This document shows positions 24,881 to 44,811 of a stretch of 64,000 nt of DNA, in pieces. Every line of letters begins with the position of its first letter. Positions within the stretch are counted from its first letter, which is position 1. Under the pieces are notes generated by a model. The model was not told the origin of the DNA, did no database searches, and saw nothing but the letters and a program-made list of their open reading frames with translations. Source of the stretch: Egicoccus halophilus (GTDB lineage Bacteria > Actinomycetota > Nitriliruptoria > Nitriliruptorales > Nitriliruptoraceae); contig NZ_CP036250.1 in the NCBI RefSeq assembly GCF_004300825.1, positions 3,111,001-3,175,000 on the forward strand. Reading direction: 5' to 3'. The position numbers and the translations under genes are program-made.

Positions 24881-26566
24881 TCAGGCCTCGCGCACGACCG
24901 GCAGGATGAACGGGCGGCGGCCCGTCTCGGACCGCCAGAACGTCCCCAGTGCCTGCACGACGTGACGCTGCACCACCTGCGGGTCCTGGAACTTCACGCG
25001 GGTGAGGCTGGCGAGTTCCCGGTCGACCGCCTGCTTGGCCTGCTCGAGGATGTCCTCCTCCGTGCCGTGGAACACCACACCCTTCTGCGTGACCACGACG
25101 TCGCCGACGACGCCGCCGTCGTGGGTGTCGACCGCGACCACGCAGACGCAGATCCCGTCCTCACCGATCCGGCGCCGGTCGCGCAGCAGCGCCGGGCCGA
25201 CGTCGTCGAGCAGACCGTCGATGTAGACATGGCTGGTGGTCACCGGCTCGCCGCGCGTCACGACGCCGTCCTCGAGCACGACCGTGTCGCCGTCCTCGCA
25301 GATCAGCACGTGCTCGGGCAACGCTCCGGTCTGCTCGGCGATCTCGCCGTGCGCCCGCAGGTGCCGGTGCTCGCCGTGGACGGGCACGAAGTACTCCGGC
25401 TCGACCACGTTGTGGAACAGCAGCAGCTCCTCGCGCGAGGCGTGACCGGAGACGTGCACCGGTGCGACGCCCTTGTGCACGACCTTGCAGCCGCGACGCG
25501 AGAGGTTGTTGATGGAGCGGTAGACGGCCTGCTCGTTGCCGGGGATGAGGCTGCTGGCCAGGATCACCAGGTCGCCCTCGCCCACCTCGAGGTGCTTGTG
25601 GTCACCGGCGCCCATCAGCGACAGCGCGCTGAACGGCTCCCCCTGCGACCCGGTGGAGATGACGATCAGCTGACGACGGTCGTAGCGGTCGACCTCGTGG
25701 AGCTCGACGACCGAGTCGTGGTCGAAGTCGAGGTACTCGAGCTCCTGCGCGATGCCCATGTTGCGGACCATCGAGCGTCCGACGAACACCGGTCGACGAC
25801 CCACTTCGGCGGCGGCGTCGAGCACCTGCTGGATGCGGTGCACGTGCGAGGCGAACGACGCGACCACGATCAGCCCGTCCTTCTGCGCCGCGATGTGCTC
25901 CTTGACGTTGCGACCGACGGTGCGCTCGGTCGCGACGTGCCCGGGCACGTCGGCACCGGTCGAGTCGGCGAGCAGCAGGTCGACACCCTCGTCACCGAGG
26001 CGGGCGAAGTGGGCGATGTCGGTGGGGCGGTTGTCGATCGGGGTCTGGTCGAGCTTGAAGTCGCCGGTGTGGACGATGAGCCCGTGCGGGGTCCGGAACG
26101 CGTAGGCGACCCCGTCGGGGATCGAGTGGCTGACCTGGACCGCTTCGACGGTGAACGGGCCCTGTTCGATGGTCTCCGCCGGTTCGATCACCTCCAGGCG
26201 CGGCTCGGGCAGGTCCGGCCACTCCTCGAGGATCGCTTCGACGAACGCGATCGTCAGCTGCGTGCCGTAGACGGGCACGCCCTCGCGGTCGAGGTCGCGC
26301 AGCAGGTAGGGCAACGCCCCGATGTGGTCGAGGTGGCCGTGCGTGAGGAAGACCGCCTCGACGTCGTCGGCACGGTCCTTGACGCTGGACCAGTCGGGCA
26401 GGATCAGGTCCACCCCGAGGTGCTCGGCGTCGGGGAACAGCACGCCGACGTCGACGACCGCGAGCCGGCCGTCGACCTCGATGGTGGCCATGTTGCGGCC
26501 GATCTCGCCCAACCCGCCGAGAAAGCTGACGGTGACGGGAGGGGAGTCGGTGTCGTTGCCGGTCAT
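24881..26566 (-). CDS. rnj: Ribonuclease J
   Basis: Metallo-beta-lactamase/beta-CASP RNase with 5'-3' exo- and endonuclease activity, a main mRNA and rRNA processor in actinobacteria. 561 residues. Metal site LTHGHLDHIGALPYL (about residue 78), then HTGDFKLDQ, the beta-CASP motifs (STGSQGEP, VHVSGHAS) and PVHGEHRH. A C-terminal domain ending VVREA closes the protein. ATG 26566 overlaps the TGA of dapA (ATGA), the common actinobacterial dapA-rnj pairing. Confidence 0.96.
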   Translation of the reverse strand: MTGNDTDSPPVTVSFLGGLGEIGRNMATIEVDGRLAVVDVGVLFPDAEHLGVDLILPDWSSVKDRADDVEAVFLTHGHLDHIGALPYLLRDLDREGVPVYGTQLTIAFVEAILEEWPDLPEPRLEVIEPAETIEQGPFTVEAVQVSHSIPDGVAYAFRTPHGLIVHTGDFKLDQTPIDNRPTDIAHFARLGDEGVDLLLADSTGADVPGHVATERTVGRNVKEHIAAQKDGLIVVASFASHVHRIQQVLDAAAEVGRRPVFVGRSMVRNMGIAQELEYLDFDHDSVVELHEVDRYDRRQLIVISTGSQGEPFSALSLMGAGDHKHLEVGEGDLVILASSLIPGNEQAVYRSINNLSRRGCKVVHKGVAPVHVSGHASREELLLFHNVVEPEYFVPVHGEHRHLRAHGEIAEQTGALPEHVLICEDGDTVVLEDGVVTRGEPVTTSHVYIDGLLDDVGPALLRDRRRIGEDGICVCVVAVDTHDGGVVGDVVVTQKGVVFHGTEEDILEQAKQAVDRELASLTRVKFQDPQVVQRHVVQALGTFWRSETGRRPFILPVVREA

Positions 26567-27480
26567 CGCAGAGCCTCGATCGCTTCGTGGGCGCCGAGCA
26601 CGGCCTTGACGGTCTCCTCGGACGCCTCCGCCAGCGGACCACGTACGGGGCCGGCGGGAAGTCCGAGCGCGTTGAGGGCGGCCTTGAGCGGCGCGGGGGA
26701 CGGTTCGGTGAACAGTGCCCGGTGCAGGGGCAGACAGCGCAGGTGCAACTCGAGCGCACGGGCCGGGTCGGACGGGAACACCCGCACCATCTCGGCCAGC
26801 TCCGGACCGACGAGGTGGGCGCTCACCGAGACCAGCCCGCGGCCGCCGACGGCCAGGATCGGCAGGTTCATCTCGTCCGAGCCGCTCCACAGGTCGAACC
26901 CGCCGGGCGCGCCCCGGGTCGCGAGCCTGACGTCGGCGGCCCGGCCGAGGTCACCGGTGGCGTCCTTGACGCCGACGATGTTCTCCACGCCCGACAGTTC
27001 GGTCGTGGTGGCCAGCTCCAGCGTCGTCACCGTGCGCGCGGGGACGTCGTAGAGCAGCACCGGCAGCTCGGTGGCCTCGGCGACGGCGCGGAAGTGCGCC
27101 ACCAGTCCGTGTTGCTGGGGCTTGTTGTAGTACGGGGTGACGGCGAGGACCGCGTCGGCGCCCGCGTCGGCGGCCCGGGCGGTCGCCGCGACGCTCTTGG
27201 CCGTGTCGTTCGACCCCGTGCCGATCATCACGGTGGCGTCGCCGCCGACCGCCTCGCGGACCGCGGCCAACAGCTCCCAGGGCGCCTCGCCGTGCAGGGT
27301 CGGCGACTCACCGGTGGTCCCGTTGACCAGCACGGTGTCGGTGCCATGGTCGGCGAGGTGCCGCGCCAGTCGCTGCGCGCCGTCGAGGTCGAGCTCGCCG
27401 CCGTCCGTGAACGGCGTGACCATCGCGGTCACCACCGCGCCGATGGCCATGGCCGGTGTGCCCTCCTCGGAGGTGCTCAT
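26563..27480 (-). CDS. dapA: 4-hydroxy-tetrahydrodipicolinate synthase
   Basis: Condenses pyruvate with aspartate semialdehyde at the entry to the lysine/DAP pathway. 305 residues. Schiff-base Lys in VGVKDATGD, the pyruvate-binding NGTTGESPTL, the catalytic Tyr in LLYDVPART, and YYNKPQQHG. ATG 27480 with GAGG 6 bases upstream. Precedes and overlaps rnj. Confidence 0.97.
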   Translation of the reverse strand: MSTSEEGTPAMAIGAVVTAMVTPFTDGGELDLDGAQRLARHLADHGTDTVLVNGTTGESPTLHGEAPWELLAAVREAVGGDATVMIGTGSNDTAKSVAATARAADAGADAVLAVTPYYNKPQQHGLVAHFRAVAEATELPVLLYDVPARTVTTLELATTTELSGVENIVGVKDATGDLGRAADVRLATRGAPGGFDLWSGSDEMNLPILAVGGRGLVSVSAHLVGPELAEMVRVFPSDPARALELHLRCLPLHRALFTEPSPAPLKAALNALGLPAGPVRGPLAEASEETVKAVLGAHEAIEALR

Positions 27481-36102: not shown

Positions 36103-38235
36103 TCAGTCGCCGCTGGAACGGAGCTCGTCGTCCTCGGCGGGCGTGGGCGCAGCACCGGCGGAGGCGGACGCGTCTCCGGCCGTCGAGGAGTCGTTGGACG
36201 CGTCGTCGGCCGCCGGTCCCTCGGCAGACCCGTCGTCAGCGGCCTCCGCCGCCGCCTCGACCGCCGGCGCCTGCTCCGACACGGGCGTGTCCGCTCCCGG
36301 CGCGGGATCGGGCGTCGCCGGCTCGGTGCCGCCGGGCTCGGACGCCACCGACGCCGCGTGGCCGGAGGACGACGAGTCGTGCTCGGACGGGGCCGGTGGG
36401 GCCGGCGCCTCGGTCGCCTCGGCCGCCGCGATCGCGTGCGGCGCCTCGGGCTTCTCGAAGCGGTCGGCCGGATCGGCGACCACCAGGACCTCTCCCCCGG
36501 TCACCGGCTCCGACGCGCCGGCGTCCGCGTCCGCAATCGGCTCCGTCGCACCGGCGTCCGTGGCCGGCTCCGACGCATCCGCGTCCGCAGCCTGGTCCGA
36601 CGCACCGGCGTCCGCGTCCGCAGCCTGGTCCGCGGCACCGGCATCAGCCGCCTGGTCGGCGGACGAGTCCGGGGCGGACTCGTCCGACTCGCCGTCTTCG
36701 GGCAGGCGGCGCTTGGTCTCGCCCGAGGCCCACTCGAGCGCCTTCTGGTGGCGCTCGTCGGGCGTGATCTCCGCGGCGACCATACGGGCGTAGACGGCGC
36801 GGGCCGGCTCGGCCTGTCCCTTGCGGGCGTGCGCCCACATCAGCTCGCGGTAGGTCGGCTCGTCGACGGCCACCCCGGCGTCCCCGAGGGATGCGAGCAG
36901 GTCGTCGGCGGTGGCAAGGTCCCCGCCCCGGATCAGCGTGCCGAGCAGCTTGGACGCATCCGCGCTGGTCGGGACGATCTTCTTCGACAGCATGTGCTGG
37001 AGCAGGGCGATGGCCTCGTCGGCGCGCTTGGCGGCGACCAACCCGTTGAGCAGCGAGCCGTAGTGGCGTCCGTGGGTGAGGGTGCCCGACGCACGCAGGC
37101 GTTCGAGCAGCTCACGGGCCTCGTCGAGGCGCTTGGCCCGCACGAGGCGCTCGACCAGGTCGCGGGCGGTGCGGCGGTCGGCCGGCACGCCGTTGGCGGT
37201 CACGACCTCGAACAGCATCAGTCCGGTGTCGAGCTCGCCGGCCTGCAGGTGACGGCCGATGATGTCGGCGGCCTTCTGCGGCGGCACCGGCACCCCGAGG
37301 ATCAGCATCCAGTCGAGCACGCCGCTGGCGGCGGCGACCCGGTTCGCGGCCAGCGACACGTCGATCAGACCCTCGAGGTTCTCTCCCGAGGGGATGCGCC
37401 CGTCCGCGGCCAGCGCCAACGCGACCGACCAGGCACCGTCGACGTCGCCCGCGGCGATGCGGGCACGCAGCACGGCGTTGCGGTGGAAGCTCGACGGTCG
37501 GCTGCCGGCCTCCTCCATGGCCACGAGCGCGCGGTCGGCGGCCTCGGCGTCGCCGGCCTTGGCGTGGGCGAGCAGCAGTTCGGTGTGTACGTCACCGGGG
37601 AGGTCGACGCCGGCCTCGGACAGGCGCTCGAGCAGCTCCAGGGCCCGGTCGGTGTGCCCGGCCCGGGCCATCATCGCCACCAGCTCGGTCGACAGCCGCG
37701 GCGAGGGTGCCCGTCCGACCTGCAGCATGAGATCGACGACGGTGCGGGTGTCCTTGATGGCCCGCCGGTCGAGGCAGTCGCGCAGCAGACGTTCGTAGTC
37801 GGCGTCCGCGGCGAGCTGCCCACGCTGTGACATCTGCCGGACGACGGCCCGGGCGGCCGGGTACCGACCGGCGGCAAGGTAGATCTGCAGCACCGCGGGC
37901 GCATGGTCGGCGTCGGGTTCGACGTTCTCGCGGTGCAGCTCGTCGAGCGTCGCGAGCGCCTCGTCGGTGCGGCCGGCGCGTCCCGTGGCGATGGCGACGT
38001 CCCAGCGGGTGGCGCCCTCGACGGCGATCCCGGCGGCCTGCATCGCGGTCAGGATCTCCCCGGCACCCGCGAGGTCGCGGGCGTCGAGGTGGGCCTTGAG
38101 CAACAGGCGGTAGTGGCCCTCGCCCGGCATCACGTCGCGTTGCTGCATCGAGGCGAACACCTGGCGCATCATGCGCAGGTCGCCGGAGAACCGGCGCATC
38201 GCGTCGAGGTAGCGGTCGTTGGTCTCGGACGTCAT
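36103..38235 (-). CDS. Pentatricopeptide (PPR)-type repeat protein with acidic tail
   Basis: 710 residues. Residues 5-494 divide without gap into fourteen units of exactly 35 residues (DNA 36754-38223). Each has two helices: hydrophobic positions 6-7 and 10, usually Gly/Ala around 12-14, Ala at about 19, a hydrophobic/Met at 26, Gly near 30 and often Pro at 32-34. That period and the loop between helix B and the next helix A match PPR repeats better than TPR (34) or Sel1 (36 or more). The last ~215 residues are Ala/Asp/Glu/Ser-rich with a repeated ADQAADA theme, probably disordered. ATG 38235 follows AGGAGG by 7 bases. PPR proteins bind RNA in organelles and are rare in bacteria. The bases-specifying positions here are mostly non-canonical, so no target can be read. 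It neighbours RNase Z (divergent). Confidence 0.85.
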   Translation of the reverse strand: MTSETNDRYLDAMRRFSGDLRMMRQVFASMQQRDVMPGEGHYRLLLKAHLDARDLAGAGEILTAMQAAGIAVEGATRWDVAIATGRAGRTDEALATLDELHRENVEPDADHAPAVLQIYLAAGRYPAARAVVRQMSQRGQLAADADYERLLRDCLDRRAIKDTRTVVDLMLQVGRAPSPRLSTELVAMMARAGHTDRALELLERLSEAGVDLPGDVHTELLLAHAKAGDAEAADRALVAMEEAGSRPSSFHRNAVLRARIAAGDVDGAWSVALALAADGRIPSGENLEGLIDVSLAANRVAAASGVLDWMLILGVPVPPQKAADIIGRHLQAGELDTGLMLFEVVTANGVPADRRTARDLVERLVRAKRLDEARELLERLRASGTLTHGRHYGSLLNGLVAAKRADEAIALLQHMLSKKIVPTSADASKLLGTLIRGGDLATADDLLASLGDAGVAVDEPTYRELMWAHARKGQAEPARAVYARMVAAEITPDERHQKALEWASGETKRRLPEDGESDESAPDSSADQAADAGAADQAADADAGASDQAADADASEPATDAGATEPIADADAGASEPVTGGEVLVVADPADRFEKPEAPHAIAAAEATEAPAPPAPSEHDSSSSGHAASVASEPGGTEPATPDPAPGADTPVSEQAPAVEAAAEAADDGSAEGPAADDASNDSSTAGDASASAGAAPTPAEDDELRSSGD

Positions 38236-38514
38236 CGCTCGACCTCCTCGCGCCACGAGCCGGGACGCAGAGATCGTGCGGGTCGTCCCCCACGAGTCGC
38301 GTGCCCCCGTCTACGGGCTGCGCACCTCCCCACGTGCGCTGTGGCCAGCCGACCATCGGCCGGGCCACGGACCGTAGCGGGTCACGGACGACGACGTGCG
38401 CCCGTCGACGCCCACAGCGCACCCCGCGTCCGGTCGGTCTCACGTACCGGCACTGACTACGGTCGCGGCCCGACCGGCCGCCGCGACGCGGTGGCCGCGG
38501 CCGAGGGAGCCAGG

Positions 38515-39435
38515 ATGTCGACCCGCCAACTGGTGGTGCTGGGGACCGCGAGCCAGGTCCCGACCCGAACCCGCAACCACAACGGCCATGTGTTGCTGTG
38601 GGACGAGCTCGGGATCCTGTTCGATCCGGGTGAGGGCACCCAGCGGCAGCTCACGCATGCCGGCCTGCCGGTGTCCCGCATCGACCACGTCTGCATCACC
38701 CACGCCCACGGCGACCACTGCCTGGGGTTGCCCGGCGTGCTGCAGCGGCGGGCGCTCGACGGGCTGAGCGCACCGGTGACCGTGCACCATCCTCGCCCCG
38801 CCGCGGACACGATCGCCCGGCTGCGTGACGCGACCCCGTACGAGGCCACCGCACCGGTGGTGCTGCGCGGCGTCGAGCTCGCGTCCACCGCGCCGCTGGA
38901 CCTCGGGCCGGTGACGCTGCGGGCCGCACCGCTCGAGCACGGTGAGCCGGCCGTGGGGTGGCGCATCGACGAGCCCGACGGCTGGCGGGCGGACCCGGAG
39001 CTCCTGGCCGCCGCGCGCGTGCCCGGCCCGCTGCGGCGCGAACTGCTGCGCGAGGGTCGGGTCGAGGTGGACGGACGCATGGTCCGGCGCGAGGAGGTGG
39101 CGGTGCCGCGTCCCGGACAGTCGATGGCGTTCGTGATGGACACGCGCGACTGCGACGGGGCCCGCGAGCTCGCGGCGGGCGTGGACCTACTGGTGATCGA
39201 GGCCACGTTCCTCGACGACCAGCGGGCACTCGCCGAGGAGGTGGGGCACCTCACCGCCACCCAGGCGGCCCGCATCGGGGCGGAGTGCGGAGCGCGCCGG
39301 GTGGTGCTGACCCACTTCTCGCAACGCTACCCGGACCTGACCGAGCACCTCGCGCAGGCCCGGGCCGCGGCGCCGGGTCTGGACATCCACGTCGCCGCCG
39401 ACCTCGACCGCGTCGACGTCCCGCCCCGCCGCTGA
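38515..39435 (+). CDS. rnz: Ribonuclease Z
   Basis: tRNA 3'-end endonuclease of the metallo-beta-lactamase superfamily. 306 residues with FDPGEGTQRQL, metal motif THAHGDHCLGLPG, FVMDTRD and the final HFSQRY (LTHFSQRYPD), all typical of short-form tRNase Z. ATG 38515 follows GAGGGAG. About 280 bases separate it from the divergent PPR-like gene; weak TACGGT -10-like sequences face both ways (38458-38463 on plus, 38376-38371 on minus). Confidence 0.95.
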   Translation: MSTRQLVVLGTASQVPTRTRNHNGHVLLWDELGILFDPGEGTQRQLTHAGLPVSRIDHVCITHAHGDHCLGLPGVLQRRALDGLSAPVTVHHPRPAADTIARLRDATPYEATAPVVLRGVELASTAPLDLGPVTLRAAPLEHGEPAVGWRIDEPDGWRADPELLAAARVPGPLRRELLREGRVEVDGRMVRREEVAVPRPGQSMAFVMDTRDCDGARELAAGVDLLVIEATFLDDQRALAEEVGHLTATQAARIGAECGARRVVLTHFSQRYPDLTEHLAQARAAAPGLDIHVAADLDRVDVPPRR

Positions 39436-39549: not shown

Positions 39550-40335
39550 TCAGAGCACGTGTTCGAGGCCGACGACGAGGCCGTCGAGGGAGGCGACCTT
39601 GCGGCAGCCGAGCAGGACGCCGGGCATGAACGAGGTGCGGTCGATGGAGTCGTGCCGCAGGGTCAGGGTCTGTCCGGTGCCGCCGAAGATGACCTCCTCG
39701 TGCGCGACCAGGCCGGGCAGCCGCACCGAGTGGACGCGCACGTCGGCGTGGGCGGCGCCGCGGGCGCCGGGGTGACGGTCGTCACCGAGCGGCGCGTCGG
39801 GGATCTCGGCGCGGGCGTCGGCGATGAGCTCGGCGGTGCGCAGCGCGGTGCCGGAGGGGGCGTCGACCTTGCGGTCGTGGTGCAGCTCGATGATCTCGAC
39901 GTGCGGGAGGTACCTGGCGGCCTCGGCGGCGAACTGCATCAGCAGGACGGCGCCGATGGCGAAGTTCGGGGCGATCAGCGCGTTGGCGGGGCGGGCCTCG
40001 GCGAGTTCGCGCGCGACCGTGAGATCGGCCTCGTCGATGCCGGTGGCGCCGACGACGGCGTGCAGGTCGTGTTCGAGCAGCCAGCGCAGGTTCGCGCCGA
40101 CCGCGGACGGCCCGGTGAACTCGACGACCACCTCGGCTCCGGCGTCGACCAGCGCGTCGAGGTCCCCGGCGAGGGTGAGGTCGGTGTCCACGCCGGTGGC
40201 CTCGCGTACGGCGACGCCCGCGTGGTGGGGGTCGACCGCGGCGACCAGTTCGAGGTCGTCCGCTGCGGCCACGGCACGGCAGACCTCGGCGCCCATGCGG
40301 CCCGCTGCCCCCACGACACCCACCCGGATGGTCAC
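39550..40335 (-). CDS. dapB: 4-hydroxy-tetrahydrodipicolinate reductase
   Basis: NAD(P)H-dependent reductase after DapA. 261 residues. Nucleotide-binding VGVVGAAGRMG at the start, VEFTGPSAVGAN, catalytic region ELHHDRKVDAPSGTA (His-His and Lys), and a C-terminal GGTGQTLTLRHDS. GTG 40335 follows AGGAG. Same strand and close to the M16 peptidase, pnp and rpsO genes, the usual actinobacterial order. Confidence 0.97.
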   Translation of the reverse strand: MTIRVGVVGAAGRMGAEVCRAVAAADDLELVAAVDPHHAGVAVREATGVDTDLTLAGDLDALVDAGAEVVVEFTGPSAVGANLRWLLEHDLHAVVGATGIDEADLTVARELAEARPANALIAPNFAIGAVLLMQFAAEAARYLPHVEIIELHHDRKVDAPSGTALRTAELIADARAEIPDAPLGDDRHPGARGAAHADVRVHSVRLPGLVAHEEVIFGGTGQTLTLRHDSIDRTSFMPGVLLGCRKVASLDGLVVGLEHVL

Positions 40336-40372: not shown

Positions 40373-41635
40373 TCAGGCGACGGCGGCGGCGAAGCGGTCG
40401 GTCTCCCCGACGTCGAACGGGCCGACCACGGCGAGGTCGCGCGGTTGCTGCAGCACCCGGGCGGCGACCCGGCGGACGTCGTCGGCGGTGACCGCACCGA
40501 TGCGCAGCAGGGCGTCGTCGACGGTGACGATGTCGGCCCCGGTGGCGATCTGCTTGCCCAGACGCGACATCCTCGAGCCGGAGTCCTCGAGGGAGAGGAC
40601 CGTCCCGCCGGTCAGCGCACCCTTGGCCCGTTCGACCTCGGCGGCGGTCACCTCGTCGGCGACGACGTCGAGCTGTTCGCGCAGGACCTGCAGCGCCTCG
40701 TCGACCTTTGCCGGGGCGGTGCCGACGTAGGCGCCGAACAACCCGCCGTCGGTGTACGACGAGGTGTAGCTGTAGGTGGAGTAGGCCAGGCCGCGGACCT
40801 CGCGGATCTCCTGGAACAGCCGCGACGACATGCCGCCACCGAGCAGCGTGTTGAGCACCCGCAGCGCCCAGCGGTCCTCGTCGCGGTGGGCCAGGCCGGG
40901 GACACCCAGGACCACGTGGGCCTGCTCGGTCGGGCGGTGACGGACGCGCACCTGGCCACGACCGAACTCGCGCGGGGCCACGCGCGCGGGCCGGGCACCG
41001 CCGGGACGATGCAGGTCACCGAGCAGTTCGTCGGTGAGCCGGACCACCGCGTCGTGGTCGACGTTGCCGGCGGCGGCGACGGTGAGGTTGTGCGGCCGGT
41101 AGGTCTGGCGGTAGTAGCCGTCGACGGTGTCGCGGGTCATGCGGGTGATCGAGTCGGCGCTGCCGAGGGTCTCCAGGGCCAGCGGGTGCGTCCCAAGGAC
41201 GACCTCGGAGAAGTCGGAGTGCACCAGGTCGTCGGGGGTGTCGACGTGGATGTCGATCTCGCTGAGCACGACCTGGCGTTCGGCCTCGACGTCGGCCTCG
41301 GCGTTGGTGGCGTCGACGACCATGTCGGCGAGCACGTCGAACGCCAGCGGCAGGTCCTGGTCGAGCACGCGCGCGTAGAAGCAGGTCAGCTCCTTGGAGG
41401 TGAACGCGTTCATCTCCCCGCCGACGGCGTCGAGGGCCTCGGCGATGTCGCGGGCGCTGCGCCGGGACGTGCCCTTGAACAGCAGGTGTTCGAGGAAGTG
41501 GGAGCACCCGGCCTGCTCGCCGGTCTCGTCGCGGGAGCCGACGCCGATCCACAGGCCGAGCGTCGCGGAGCGGACGGCCGGCATGTGCTCGGTGACGACG
41601 GTGATGCCGGAGTCGAGCTGGGTCAGCTGGTGCAC
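40373..41635 (-). CDS. M16 family zinc metallopeptidase
   Basis: 420-residue pitrilysin/mitochondrial processing peptidase-type protein. The inverted zinc motif HFLEH (about residues 46-50) sits in AGCSHFLEHLLFKGT, with the distal Glu ligand in the region EVDVEAERQVVLSEI. The C-terminal half contains GGGMSSRLFQEIREVRGLAYS, the conserved RxxxGLAYS block. Single polypeptide with both halves. GTG 41635 after AAGGA. Conserved next to pnp in Gram-positive bacteria. Substrate unknown. Confidence 0.93.
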   Translation of the reverse strand: MHQLTQLDSGITVVTEHMPAVRSATLGLWIGVGSRDETGEQAGCSHFLEHLLFKGTSRRSARDIAEALDAVGGEMNAFTSKELTCFYARVLDQDLPLAFDVLADMVVDATNAEADVEAERQVVLSEIDIHVDTPDDLVHSDFSEVVLGTHPLALETLGSADSITRMTRDTVDGYYRQTYRPHNLTVAAAGNVDHDAVVRLTDELLGDLHRPGGARPARVAPREFGRGQVRVRHRPTEQAHVVLGVPGLAHRDEDRWALRVLNTLLGGGMSSRLFQEIREVRGLAYSTYSYTSSYTDGGLFGAYVGTAPAKVDEALQVLREQLDVVADEVTAAEVERAKGALTGGTVLSLEDSGSRMSRLGKQIATGADIVTVDDALLRIGAVTADDVRRVAARVLQQPRDLAVVGPFDVGETDRFAAAVA

Positions 41636-41698: not shown

Positions 41699-44326
41699 TC
41701 AGTCGCGCTCGCGGCTGCGGCTGCGGGTCCGCGTGCGGGTGCGCTCGCCCCCGCCGTCGCCGCCGCCCTCGCGGCCGCCACGCTCACGGTCACCGCCACG
41801 CTCACGGTCACCGCCACGCTCACGGTCACCGCCACGCTCACGGTCACCACCGCGGTCCCGGTCACCACCGCGGTCCCGGTCACCGCCACGCTCACGGTCA
41901 CCACCACGGCCACCGCGCTCGCGATCACCGCCACGCTCGCCGCGCTCCCGGCCACCACGCTCACGATCGCCGCCACGCTCGCGGTCACCGCCACGCTCAC
42001 GGTCACCACCACGGCCACCGCGCTCGCGGTCACCGCCACGGTCACCGCGCTCGCGGTCACCGCCACGGTCACGGCCGCCACGGGGCTCGTCGTCGCCACC
42101 GTCGGCGTCGCCGTCGTCGTTCCCGCCGGCACGCTCACCGACGTACTCGAGCTTGAACTTGCGACCGCCGTCGAGAACGTCCTTGACCTCGACGAGTACC
42201 TGCTGGCCGACCTCGACCGCGTCCTCGGCGTGGTTGAGCCGCTTGCCGGCCATCTTCGACAGCTCGGAGATGTGCAGCAGCCCGTCGGTCCCCGGGGTGA
42301 GGTTCACGAAGGCGCCGAAGTCGACCGTCTTGACGACCGTGGCGCTGTAGCGCTCGCCGACCTCGGGCAGCTGCGGGTTGGCGATCGCGTTGACCCGGTC
42401 GAGGGCGTCCTGCGCCTGCTCACGGGAGCTGGCGTAGATCTTGACGACGCCGCGGCCGTCCTCCTCGTCGACGTCGATCTGGGCGCCGGTGACCTCCACC
42501 AGCTCCTTGATGATCGCCCCGCGCGGGCCGATGACCGCACCGATCTTGTCCTGCGGGATGCTGACGATCTCGACCCGCGGGGCGGTCTCGGCGACCTCGT
42601 CGCGCGGCTCGCCGATGGCGTCGTTCATCACCTCGAGGATCTGCAGGCGGGCGTCGCGGGCCTGCAGCAGCGCGTCCTGCAGGACGTTGGCCGGGATGCC
42701 GGCGAGCTTGGTGTCCAACTGCAGCGCGGTGATGAAGTTCTCGGGACCCGCGACCTTGAAGTCCATGTCGCCGAAGAAGTCCTCGACGCCCTGGATGTCG
42801 GTCAGGGTGGTGTACTTGCCGTTCTCGTACACCAGCCCCATCGCGATACCGGCGACCTGCGCGTGCACCGGCACACCGCCGTCCATCAGCGCCATCGACG
42901 CGGCGCACACCGACCCCATCGAGGTCGAGCCGTTGGAGCTGAGGACGTCGGAGACGACCCGCATCGCGTACGGCCAGGTGTCCTGCTCGGGCAGGACCGG
43001 GATCAGGGCACGCTCGGCCAGCGCACCGTGGCCGATCTCGCGACGCTTGGGGCTGCCGACCCGGCCGGCCTCACCGGTCGAGTAGGGCGGCATGTTGTAG
43101 TGGTGCAGGAACAGCTTCTCGTCCTGGGGGTCGAGGGTGTCGAGCCGCTGTCCGTCGCGCTGGGTGCCCAGCGCCAGGACCGACAGGACCTGGGTCTCGC
43201 CGCGCTGGAACAGCGCCGATCCGTGGGTCTTGGGCAGCACGCCGACCTCGGCGCTCAGCTGCCGCAGGTCGCTCGGGCCGCGCCCGTCGATGCGGAAGCC
43301 GTCGTCGACGATCAGCTGGCGCACGACCTTCTTCTCGGTCGAGCGGAACGCCTCGGACGCCTGCTTGCCACGGGCGTCCTCGTCGAGGTCCTCCGGGCCG
43401 TCGGCGACCACGTGCGCGATCGACTCCTGGCGCACGACGTCGAGCTGGTCGTTGCGCTCGGCCTTGGTCAGCTCGGCGTCGCGGTAGATCGAGGTGACCC
43501 GGTCGGCGGCGAAGCCCCAGACGGCGTCGAAGACCTCGTCGGTGTAGTCGACGAACAGCGGGAACTCGCCCGCGTCACGGGCGCCGACCTCGTCGACGAA
43601 CGCCTGCTGCGCCTCGCACAGCTGCTTGATGATCGGCTTGACGTCCTCGATGGCCTGACCGACGACCTGCTCGGTCGGCGCCGGGGCGCCCATCTCGACC
43701 TTCACCCACGCGTCCGGGGTGGCCTCGGCCTCGATCATGAGGATGGCGACCTCGCCGTCGTCCTCGACGCGGCCGGAGATCACCATGTTGAAGACCGCCT
43801 CCTCCTCGAGCTCCTCGAAGGAGGGGAAGGCGATCCAGGAGCCGTCGCGCAGCATCGCGTAGCGCACGGCGGCGATCGGGCCGGCGAACGGCAGGCCCGA
43901 GAGCATCGTCGACAGCGACGAGCCGTTCATCGCGACGACGTCGTAGGGGTCGAACTGCACCGTCTGCACGACGGTGTTGACGACCTGGACCTCGTTGCGC
44001 AGTCCCTCGGCGAACGTCGGGCGCAGCGGGCGGTCGGTCAGCCGGCACACCAGGATGGCGTTCTCCGACGGACGGCCCTCGCGCTTGAAGAACGAGCCCG
44101 GGATGCGCCCGTTGGCGTACATCCGCTCCTCGACCTCGATGGTGAGGGGGAAGAACGGCAGGAAGTCCTTGGGCTGCTTCGACGCCGTGGTGGTCGTCAG
44201 GACCTTCGTGTCACCGAGGGTGGTGACGACCGCGCCACCGGCCTGCTGGGCCAGGGTGCCGGCTTCGAAGGTGATGGTCTTGCCGTCGATCTCGACGTTG
44301 TGTTCGTACGTTCCGAGCGTGCCCAC
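41699..44326 (-). CDS. pnp: Polynucleotide phosphorylase with RGG/RD-rich tail
   Basis: 3'-5' phosphorolytic exoribonuclease. Two RNase PH domains (about 10-215 and 310-560) with FFKREGRPSE and GSPKRREIGHGALAERAL, the active-site region MGSVCAASMALMDGGVP, a KH domain (IGAVIGPRGAIIKEL) and an S1 domain (FGAFVNLTPGTDGLLHISEL). From about residue 720 on, 150 residues are almost only Gly, Arg, Asp and Glu, made of GGDRERGG-like units. This long disordered RNA-binding-type tail is far beyond the S1 end of most PNPases. GTG 44326 follows GAGGAGG. Confidence 0.97.
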   Translation of the reverse strand: MGTLGTYEHNVEIDGKTITFEAGTLAQQAGGAVVTTLGDTKVLTTTTASKQPKDFLPFFPLTIEVEERMYANGRIPGSFFKREGRPSENAILVCRLTDRPLRPTFAEGLRNEVQVVNTVVQTVQFDPYDVVAMNGSSLSTMLSGLPFAGPIAAVRYAMLRDGSWIAFPSFEELEEEAVFNMVISGRVEDDGEVAILMIEAEATPDAWVKVEMGAPAPTEQVVGQAIEDVKPIIKQLCEAQQAFVDEVGARDAGEFPLFVDYTDEVFDAVWGFAADRVTSIYRDAELTKAERNDQLDVVRQESIAHVVADGPEDLDEDARGKQASEAFRSTEKKVVRQLIVDDGFRIDGRGPSDLRQLSAEVGVLPKTHGSALFQRGETQVLSVLALGTQRDGQRLDTLDPQDEKLFLHHYNMPPYSTGEAGRVGSPKRREIGHGALAERALIPVLPEQDTWPYAMRVVSDVLSSNGSTSMGSVCAASMALMDGGVPVHAQVAGIAMGLVYENGKYTTLTDIQGVEDFFGDMDFKVAGPENFITALQLDTKLAGIPANVLQDALLQARDARLQILEVMNDAIGEPRDEVAETAPRVEIVSIPQDKIGAVIGPRGAIIKELVEVTGAQIDVDEEDGRGVVKIYASSREQAQDALDRVNAIANPQLPEVGERYSATVVKTVDFGAFVNLTPGTDGLLHISELSKMAGKRLNHAEDAVEVGQQVLVEVKDVLDGGRKFKLEYVGERAGGNDDGDADGGDDEPRGGRDRGGDRERGDRGGDRERGGRGGDRERGGDRERGGDRERGGRERGERGGDRERGGRGGDRERGGDRDRGGDRDRGGDRERGGDRERGGDRERGGDRERGGREGGGDGGGERTRTRTRSRSRERD

Positions 44327-44538: not shown

Positions 44539-44811
44539 TCAGCGGCGGAGCTCGAGCTCCGCGATGAGCGCGCGGTAGCGCTCGATGTCCTTGTCACGCA
44601 GGTAGTTCAGCAGCCGTCGACGCTGACCGACCAGCATCAGCAGCCCACGCCGCGAGTGGTGGTCGTGCTTGTGCGTCTTGAGGTGCTCGGTCAGGTGGCT
44701 GATGCGCTTGGTCAGCAGCGCCACCTGGACCTCGGGGGAGCCGGTGTCGCCCTCGCTCTGCGCGAAACGGGCGATGATCTCCTGCTTGTCGTCGGGAAGG
44801 ACGGCAGCCAA
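44539..44811 (-). CDS. rpsO: 30S ribosomal protein S15
   Basis: 90 residues; S15 blocks [36 protein letters not shown] and [16 protein letters not shown] are all present. The start is TTG 44811, with AGGAG six bases upstream; no ATG or GTG is available near, and the conserved protein starts right there. Binds 16S rRNA helices 20-22. Upstream of pnp as in most bacteria. Confidence 0.97.

Follow-up and report, generated by a model that had tools for sequence, protein, structure and literature searches.

A P-class pentatricopeptide repeat protein conserved beside RNA-decay genes in the actinobacterial order Nitriliruptorales

Pentatricopeptide repeat (PPR) proteins are RNA-binding proteins almost confined to chloroplasts and mitochondria, and a long, uninterrupted PPR array encoded by an actinobacterium raises the question of what such a protein is, how it came there and what it could bind. 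The gene in question lies in a 64,000-nucleotide stretch of the Egicoccus halophilus genome (the window; contig NZ_CP036250.1, positions 3,111,001 to 3,175,000), to which all unprefixed coordinates below refer. It is single-copy in that genome, starts with an ATG at 38235 downstream of a GGAGG site and has a third-codon GC content of 0.92. Judged by profile matches and predicted structure, its product is a true P-class PPR protein, with the following layout:

36103-38235, minus strand: PPR protein gene, 710 residues (open reading frame, profile matches, third-codon GC)
36754-38223, minus strand: fourteen contiguous 35-residue PPR units, residues 5-494 (repeat cutting, alignment, AlphaFold)
36703-36753, minus strand: conserved cap RHxKAxEWASGETxRRL, residues 495-511 (alignment, entropy)
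36106-36702, minus strand: acidic, Ala/Pro/Asp/Glu-rich disordered tail (composition kept, sequence not)

The initial annotation of the window, made from the letters alone, had divided residues 5-494 into fourteen gap-free units and called them PPRs, and both points are borne out. Cutting this segment at 35-residue steps yields fourteen units with zero gaps. In the 21 closest full-length homologues all of them align free of indels, and indels of 2-5 residues are confined to the distant ones. The NCBIfam model TIGR00756 (PPR) matches with 103 bits (2e-30, cut-off 20), and the Pfam models PPR_long (PF17177), PPR_2 (PF13041), PPR and PPR_3 score 77, 76, 64 and 49 bits, respectively (E-values of 1e-21 for PF17177, 2e-21 for PF13041 and 7e-18 for PF01535). 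These E-values, together with the indel-free alignment in the closest homologues, exclude a chance origin of the repeats, and PPR models are matched by every homologue in the two alignments. TPR and Sel1 proteins are likewise helix-turn-helix solenoids, but their units measure 34 or 36-44 residues rather than 35; a TPR profile as the better match, which would have told against the PPR assignment, was checked for, and TPR models reach at most 35 bits (TPR_19, the best, 34.8) as against 64-103 for PPR models. Across the 710 residues no Pfam domain was found besides the repeats, be it the SMR, DYW or NYN nuclease domain of PPR-SMR, PPR-DYW and PRORP proteins. The AlphaFold model, computed from an alignment of 24 sequences, has a mean predicted local distance difference test score of 89.9 and agrees with the solenoid expected at the outset: 28 helices form 14 antiparallel A/B pairs stacked as a solenoid, with a cap helix at residues 494-504. 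The nearest sequences in the PDB are designed PPR proteins, followed by PPR10, and maize PPR10 (4m57) is also the best PDB match in Foldseek (5.9e-15); the TM-scores are low, probably owing to a different superhelix pitch.

In having uninterrupted P-type 35-residue repeats the protein resembles maize chloroplast PPR10 and the other P-class RNA protectors HCF152 and CRP1, the first of which shares its fold according to Foldseek. It differs from them in being bacterial and cytosolic, without a transit peptide, in its mostly non-canonical code pairs, its acidic tail and its own structured leader, and in that its RNA binding is putative. Eukaryotic organelle targeting, a typical though non-defining PPR trait, is absent, the gene being on an actinobacterial chromosome. 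The initial annotation had placed an acidic tail directly after the repeats; the tail is there, but a basic cap intervenes (residues 495-511), which is the best conserved stretch of the protein (lowest mean entropy, 0.62 bits). The tail itself, beginning after residue ~510, has about 200 residues (29% Ala, 24% Asp/Glu and 2% Lys/Arg) and is conserved in composition only: in all relatives it is acidic, Ala/Pro-rich and poor in Lys/Arg (0-5%), while its length ranges from 21 to 287 residues and its sequence is not conserved. Some relatives additionally carry acidic N-terminal extensions. Within the genus of Egicoccus halophilus, the tail (36103-36702, minus strand) contains a short conserved stretch, GGEVLVVA(D/N)PADxxExPExP, absent from other genera, a possible docking motif.

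The conservation pattern of the array offers a view of its function at the base-reading sites, i.e., standard PPR positions 5 and 35 (4 and 34 in the phasing of the initial annotation). The family-wide 5/35 pairs are T/T,S in unit 7, N/T,S in unit 8, E/P in unit 9, A/D in unit 10, R/H in unit 11, G/T,A in unit 12, S/D in unit 13 and R/D in unit 14, the last being invariant (31/31 rows); those of units 1-6 are more variable. Units 7, 8 and 13 are canonical-like and unit 10 is near-canonical, the remainder being R, W, P, E, A and G pairs, which supports the earlier view of a mostly non-canonical code. The code is not merely degenerate, as had also been considered: with sequence-weighted entropies and randomly drawn exposed positions as the null, positions 5 and 35 have a mean entropy of 0.74 bits in units 8-14 (p 0.0007, somewhat optimistic because the split of the array was defined after inspection of the alignment) as against 2.05 bits in units 1-7 (p 0.97), a contrast that is large despite the post hoc split. 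Of all exposed positions in units 8-14, position 5 is conserved best. Further, position 13 is the most basic of the 35 positions (mean charge +0.36, p 0.0005); in synthetic PPR proteins Lys13 contacts phosphates and is required for RNA binding, Arg13 is compatible with it, and position 2 clamps the base (PMC11094755). The conserved 5/35 pairs of units 8-14 and the basic position 13 are the marks of an RNA-reading solenoid centred on the C-terminal half. In units 1-7 (37489-38223), the conserved exposed sites are instead positions 15, 16 and 19, at the inter-helix turn rather than where bases are read, a pattern that suggests contact with a protein or some other role of these units. A prediction of the RNA target from the code was dropped, there being too few decodable pairs.

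A candidate RNA target comes from the gene's own upstream region, which holds two further features:

38312-38368, minus strand: structured RNA element in the leader of the PPR mRNA, stem-loops SL1 and SL2 (alignment, covariation, RNAalifold, covariance model)
38371-38376, minus strand: -10-like box TACGGT of the PPR gene (consensus match only)

The box is kept as TA(C/G)(C/G)GT in the core clade, and just 3' of it all of the 22 core-clade loci examined (22/22) share an element of ~57 nucleotides with two hairpins, SL1 (CGGCCGA-nGG-TCGGCYG) and SL2 (YGCRC-GUGGG(n)-GYGCR), the SL2 loop opening with an invariant GUGG. In the alignment 291/307 pair cells are standard pairs. Both sides have changed in 21 cells, compared with 6.8 (standard deviation 2.2) in shuffles and 0-4 in slid controls; for example, nine sequences have U-A in place of C-G at the column pair 33-51, and 36-48 appears as A-U, G-C and C-G. 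RNAalifold recovers the same two stems unprompted. Taken singly, the leaders have unremarkable to modest thermodynamic z-scores (-2.3 to +0.5), so it is covariation that carries the case for the element. With a covariance model a single strong copy is recovered per genome (E <=9e-5; other matches weak, E >0.002), directly before the PPR gene wherever both share a contig. The genome searches thus gave no further strong copies that could serve as trans targets, and Rfam has no match near threshold at 38312-38368. This element may be the RNA target of the PPR protein.

As for how the gene came there, the PPR gene is present in 30/35 genomes of the family and in the single genome that represents the order's second family; no copy was found in the 25 sister-family genomes. 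Named genomes with homologues are those of Nitriliruptoraceae and Salsipaludibacter albus. Gene loss in the five remaining family members was considered and rejected, since dapB too is missing from these five assemblies, which indicates that the locus is unassembled in them rather than the gene lost. The gene is hence found in every family member with an assembled locus, and identity falls with kinship (82-87% within the genus, 41-72% within the family, 35% across the order), as befits vertical inheritance. The sole second-family genome also carries, beside the intact copy, a broken partial duplicate of the PPR gene (L040:5021-5991; segments 95-99% identical).

The neighbouring genes, given here from upstream to downstream, add a relative date to this acquisition:

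44539-44811, minus strand: rpsO, ribosomal protein S15
41699-44326, minus strand: pnp, PNPase with an Arg/Gly/Asp-rich tail
40373-41635, minus strand: M16 peptidase (pepR-like)
39550-40335, minus strand: dapB, which in the ancestral order lies directly upstream of the PPR gene
38515-39435, plus strand: rnz-like metallo-beta-lactamase gene (RNase Z), divergent, a later arrival that separates dapB from the PPR gene
26563-27480, minus strand: dapA, downstream end of the ancestral cluster
24881-26890, minus strand: rnj, RNase J (longest open reading frame; the protein probably starts near 26569)

On the minus strand of the window the order thus runs rpsO, pnp, M16 peptidase, dapB, the PPR gene (with rnz on the plus strand before it) and a lipoprotein-like open reading frame, followed past plus-strand genes by dapA, rnj and ftsK. 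Sister families (L102-L106) lack the PPR gene but have rpsO-pnp-M16-dapB and, mostly, dapA-rnj-ftsK. Within Nitriliruptorales, dapB precedes the PPR gene in all cases with both assembled, and rpsO-pnp-(M16)-dapB upstream and dapA-rnj-ftsK downstream, where the contig extends there, are linked to it across the order. In deep relatives dapB and the PPR gene are directly adjacent, with a 4-base overlap in L040; in most of the core clade the divergent rnz stands between them. These gene orders indicate a single insertion of the PPR gene into an old cluster of RNA-decay and lysine genes, where it has been retained; rnz arrived later. The RNA-processing neighbourhood emphasised in the initial annotation therefore persists as the order-wide linkage to rpsO, pnp and rnj, and fails for rnz, whose linkage is confined to the closer clade; rnz as the ancestral key partner was rejected, as the deep relatives and L051 and L066 lack it.

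The account that we tentatively favour, with a little less than even confidence, is that the protein would bind specific RNA sequences in the cytosol, probably regulating itself by way of its leader, and would protect RNA from PNPase and RNase J or delimit it against them. On this account, drawn from sequence, the model and analogy to PPR10, an ancestor of Nitriliruptorales would have acquired the gene, which became fixed inside the rpsO-pnp-dapB...dapA-rnj cluster. The solenoid would clamp a short single-stranded RNA, its bases read mainly by units 8-14 and its phosphates gripped by Arg/Lys at position 13, and in the core clade the protein would probably bind the 5'-terminal hairpin element of its mRNA as well, thereby controlling its own level. 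Chloroplasts have the same two exonucleases, PNPase and RNase J, and PPR10 works beside them there, as this protein would here. PPR10 blocks exonucleases and thereby defines transcript ends (PMC5897788, PMC10226603), and by analogy the bacterial protein would most likely act as a sequence-specific barrier, stabilising or delimiting a single transcript or a few. A narrower version is doubtful: here the protein, as the equivalent of PPR10 in bacteria, would recognise the conserved GUGGG loop in the leader of its mRNA and define RNA ends against attack by PNPase and RNase J. The decodable preferences of units 7-10 (purine, pyrimidine, any, G) do agree with GUGG, which is weak support because the loop is G-rich. 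Several further observations weigh against the favoured account. About 4/14 code pairs are canonical, and the split on which the entropy contrast depends was drawn post hoc. The PPR domain as a whole has a net charge of -10, and the basic groove foreseen by the initial annotation is supported indirectly, by position 13. The leader element was not found in the deeper relatives that have the protein. Finally, neither dapB nor the M16 gene has to do with RNA, and the cluster existed before the PPR gene joined it, which weakens an explanation of its surroundings by function alone.

Three other explanations have to be weighed against this RNA-binding account. Non-canonical PPR arrays hold structured RNA or protein in the rPPR proteins of plant mitoribosomes, and the Egicoccus protein, with most of its code pairs non-canonical and its gene within the rpsO cluster, could be a ribosome- or rRNA-associated protein of this kind. 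Its fold and sequence matches include mL102, mS76, mS77 and mL104 of plant mitoribosomes; these, however, match any PPR search because they are PPRs, and the leader, being single-copy, argues for a specific mRNA as the target, while the acidic tail is unlike ribosomal proteins, which leaves this explanation unlikely. The leader would lose that bearing if its inverted repeats were operators for a DNA-binding regulator, uninformative on RNA or the PPR protein. The element does lie between divergent genes and pairs fairly well on the opposite strand (275/307 cells), yet G-U pairs favour the PPR-sense strand (291 versus 275), the element is downstream of the -10 box, and its stems vary with compensation around an invariant loop start where an operator would conserve its half-sites. 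We regard such an operator as distinctly improbable.

That the array serves as a TPR-like protein scaffold, assembling a decay complex with PNPase and RNase J, is again an improbable proposal, though one that accounts for the linkage to pnp and rnj and for the conservation of turn positions 15, 16 and 19, not reading positions, in units 1-7. Here the acidic PPR tail would contact the PNPase tail (41699-42120, minus strand), a 140-residue Arg/Gly/Asp-rich low-complexity segment with a conserved RTRTRSRSRxRD-like end. Such PNPase tails are similar and Arg-rich in all relatives, opposite PPR tails with 0-5% Lys/Arg; in sister families they are shorter and less rich, still Arg-rich. The contact is speculative: Arg-rich PNPase tail ends also occur in genomes without the PPR gene (L102-L105), and against a scaffold in general stand the conserved reading positions and position 13 and the win of PPR over TPR profiles.

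PPR proteins have been described as absent from bacteria (PMC4029402), or as restricted there to symbionts and pathogens of eukaryotes, with gene transfer as the explanation (PMC8190603). The present protein shares with the bacterial cases reported so far the occurrence of PPR repeats in a bacterium, and differs in belonging to a free-living order, as a single-copy, vertically inherited gene at one locus. Its PPR identity is itself not new, since automatic annotation would already assign the name; what is new, as far as the openly searchable literature shows, is a vertically inherited PPR family conserved in a free-living bacterial order, along with the split conservation of its reading sites and the structured leader. 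Among 396 sampled actinobacterial genomes, PPR_2 matches occur in Nitriliruptorales and in one other family (f22) only. A single-repeat TIGR00756 scan had suggested confinement to Nitriliruptorales within the phylum, a view dropped once the weak f22 matches proved to be a second, genuine but unrelated PPR family. Its loci come from 7 genomes of one family (L107:382-3573, minus strand; L108:956-4000, plus strand; L109-L115). These are likewise large actinobacterial PPR arrays, with PF13041 E-values as low as 3e-88, but have about 1050 residues, about 20 motifs of 31-32 residues, many canonical N5 pairs and an extra N-terminal region which, on visual inspection, looks like a nucleotide-cyclase domain; similarity to the Nitriliruptorales protein is weak and restricted to the repeats.

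PPR proteins are regarded as an invention of eukaryotic organelles, and those in bacteria as oddities of species that live with a host. With one conserved copy of the gene, fixed at a locus of decay enzymes, and a candidate RNA beside it, this free-living order offers simple genetics for asking whether PPRs can protect RNA in bacteria, what the bacterial code pairs recognise and how PPRs enter and persist in a lineage. The protein is also a natural bacterial scaffold for programmable RNA binding. If recognition of its own leader holds true, Nitriliruptorales would possess a native bacterial PPR-RNA regulatory pair independent of any eukaryotic host.
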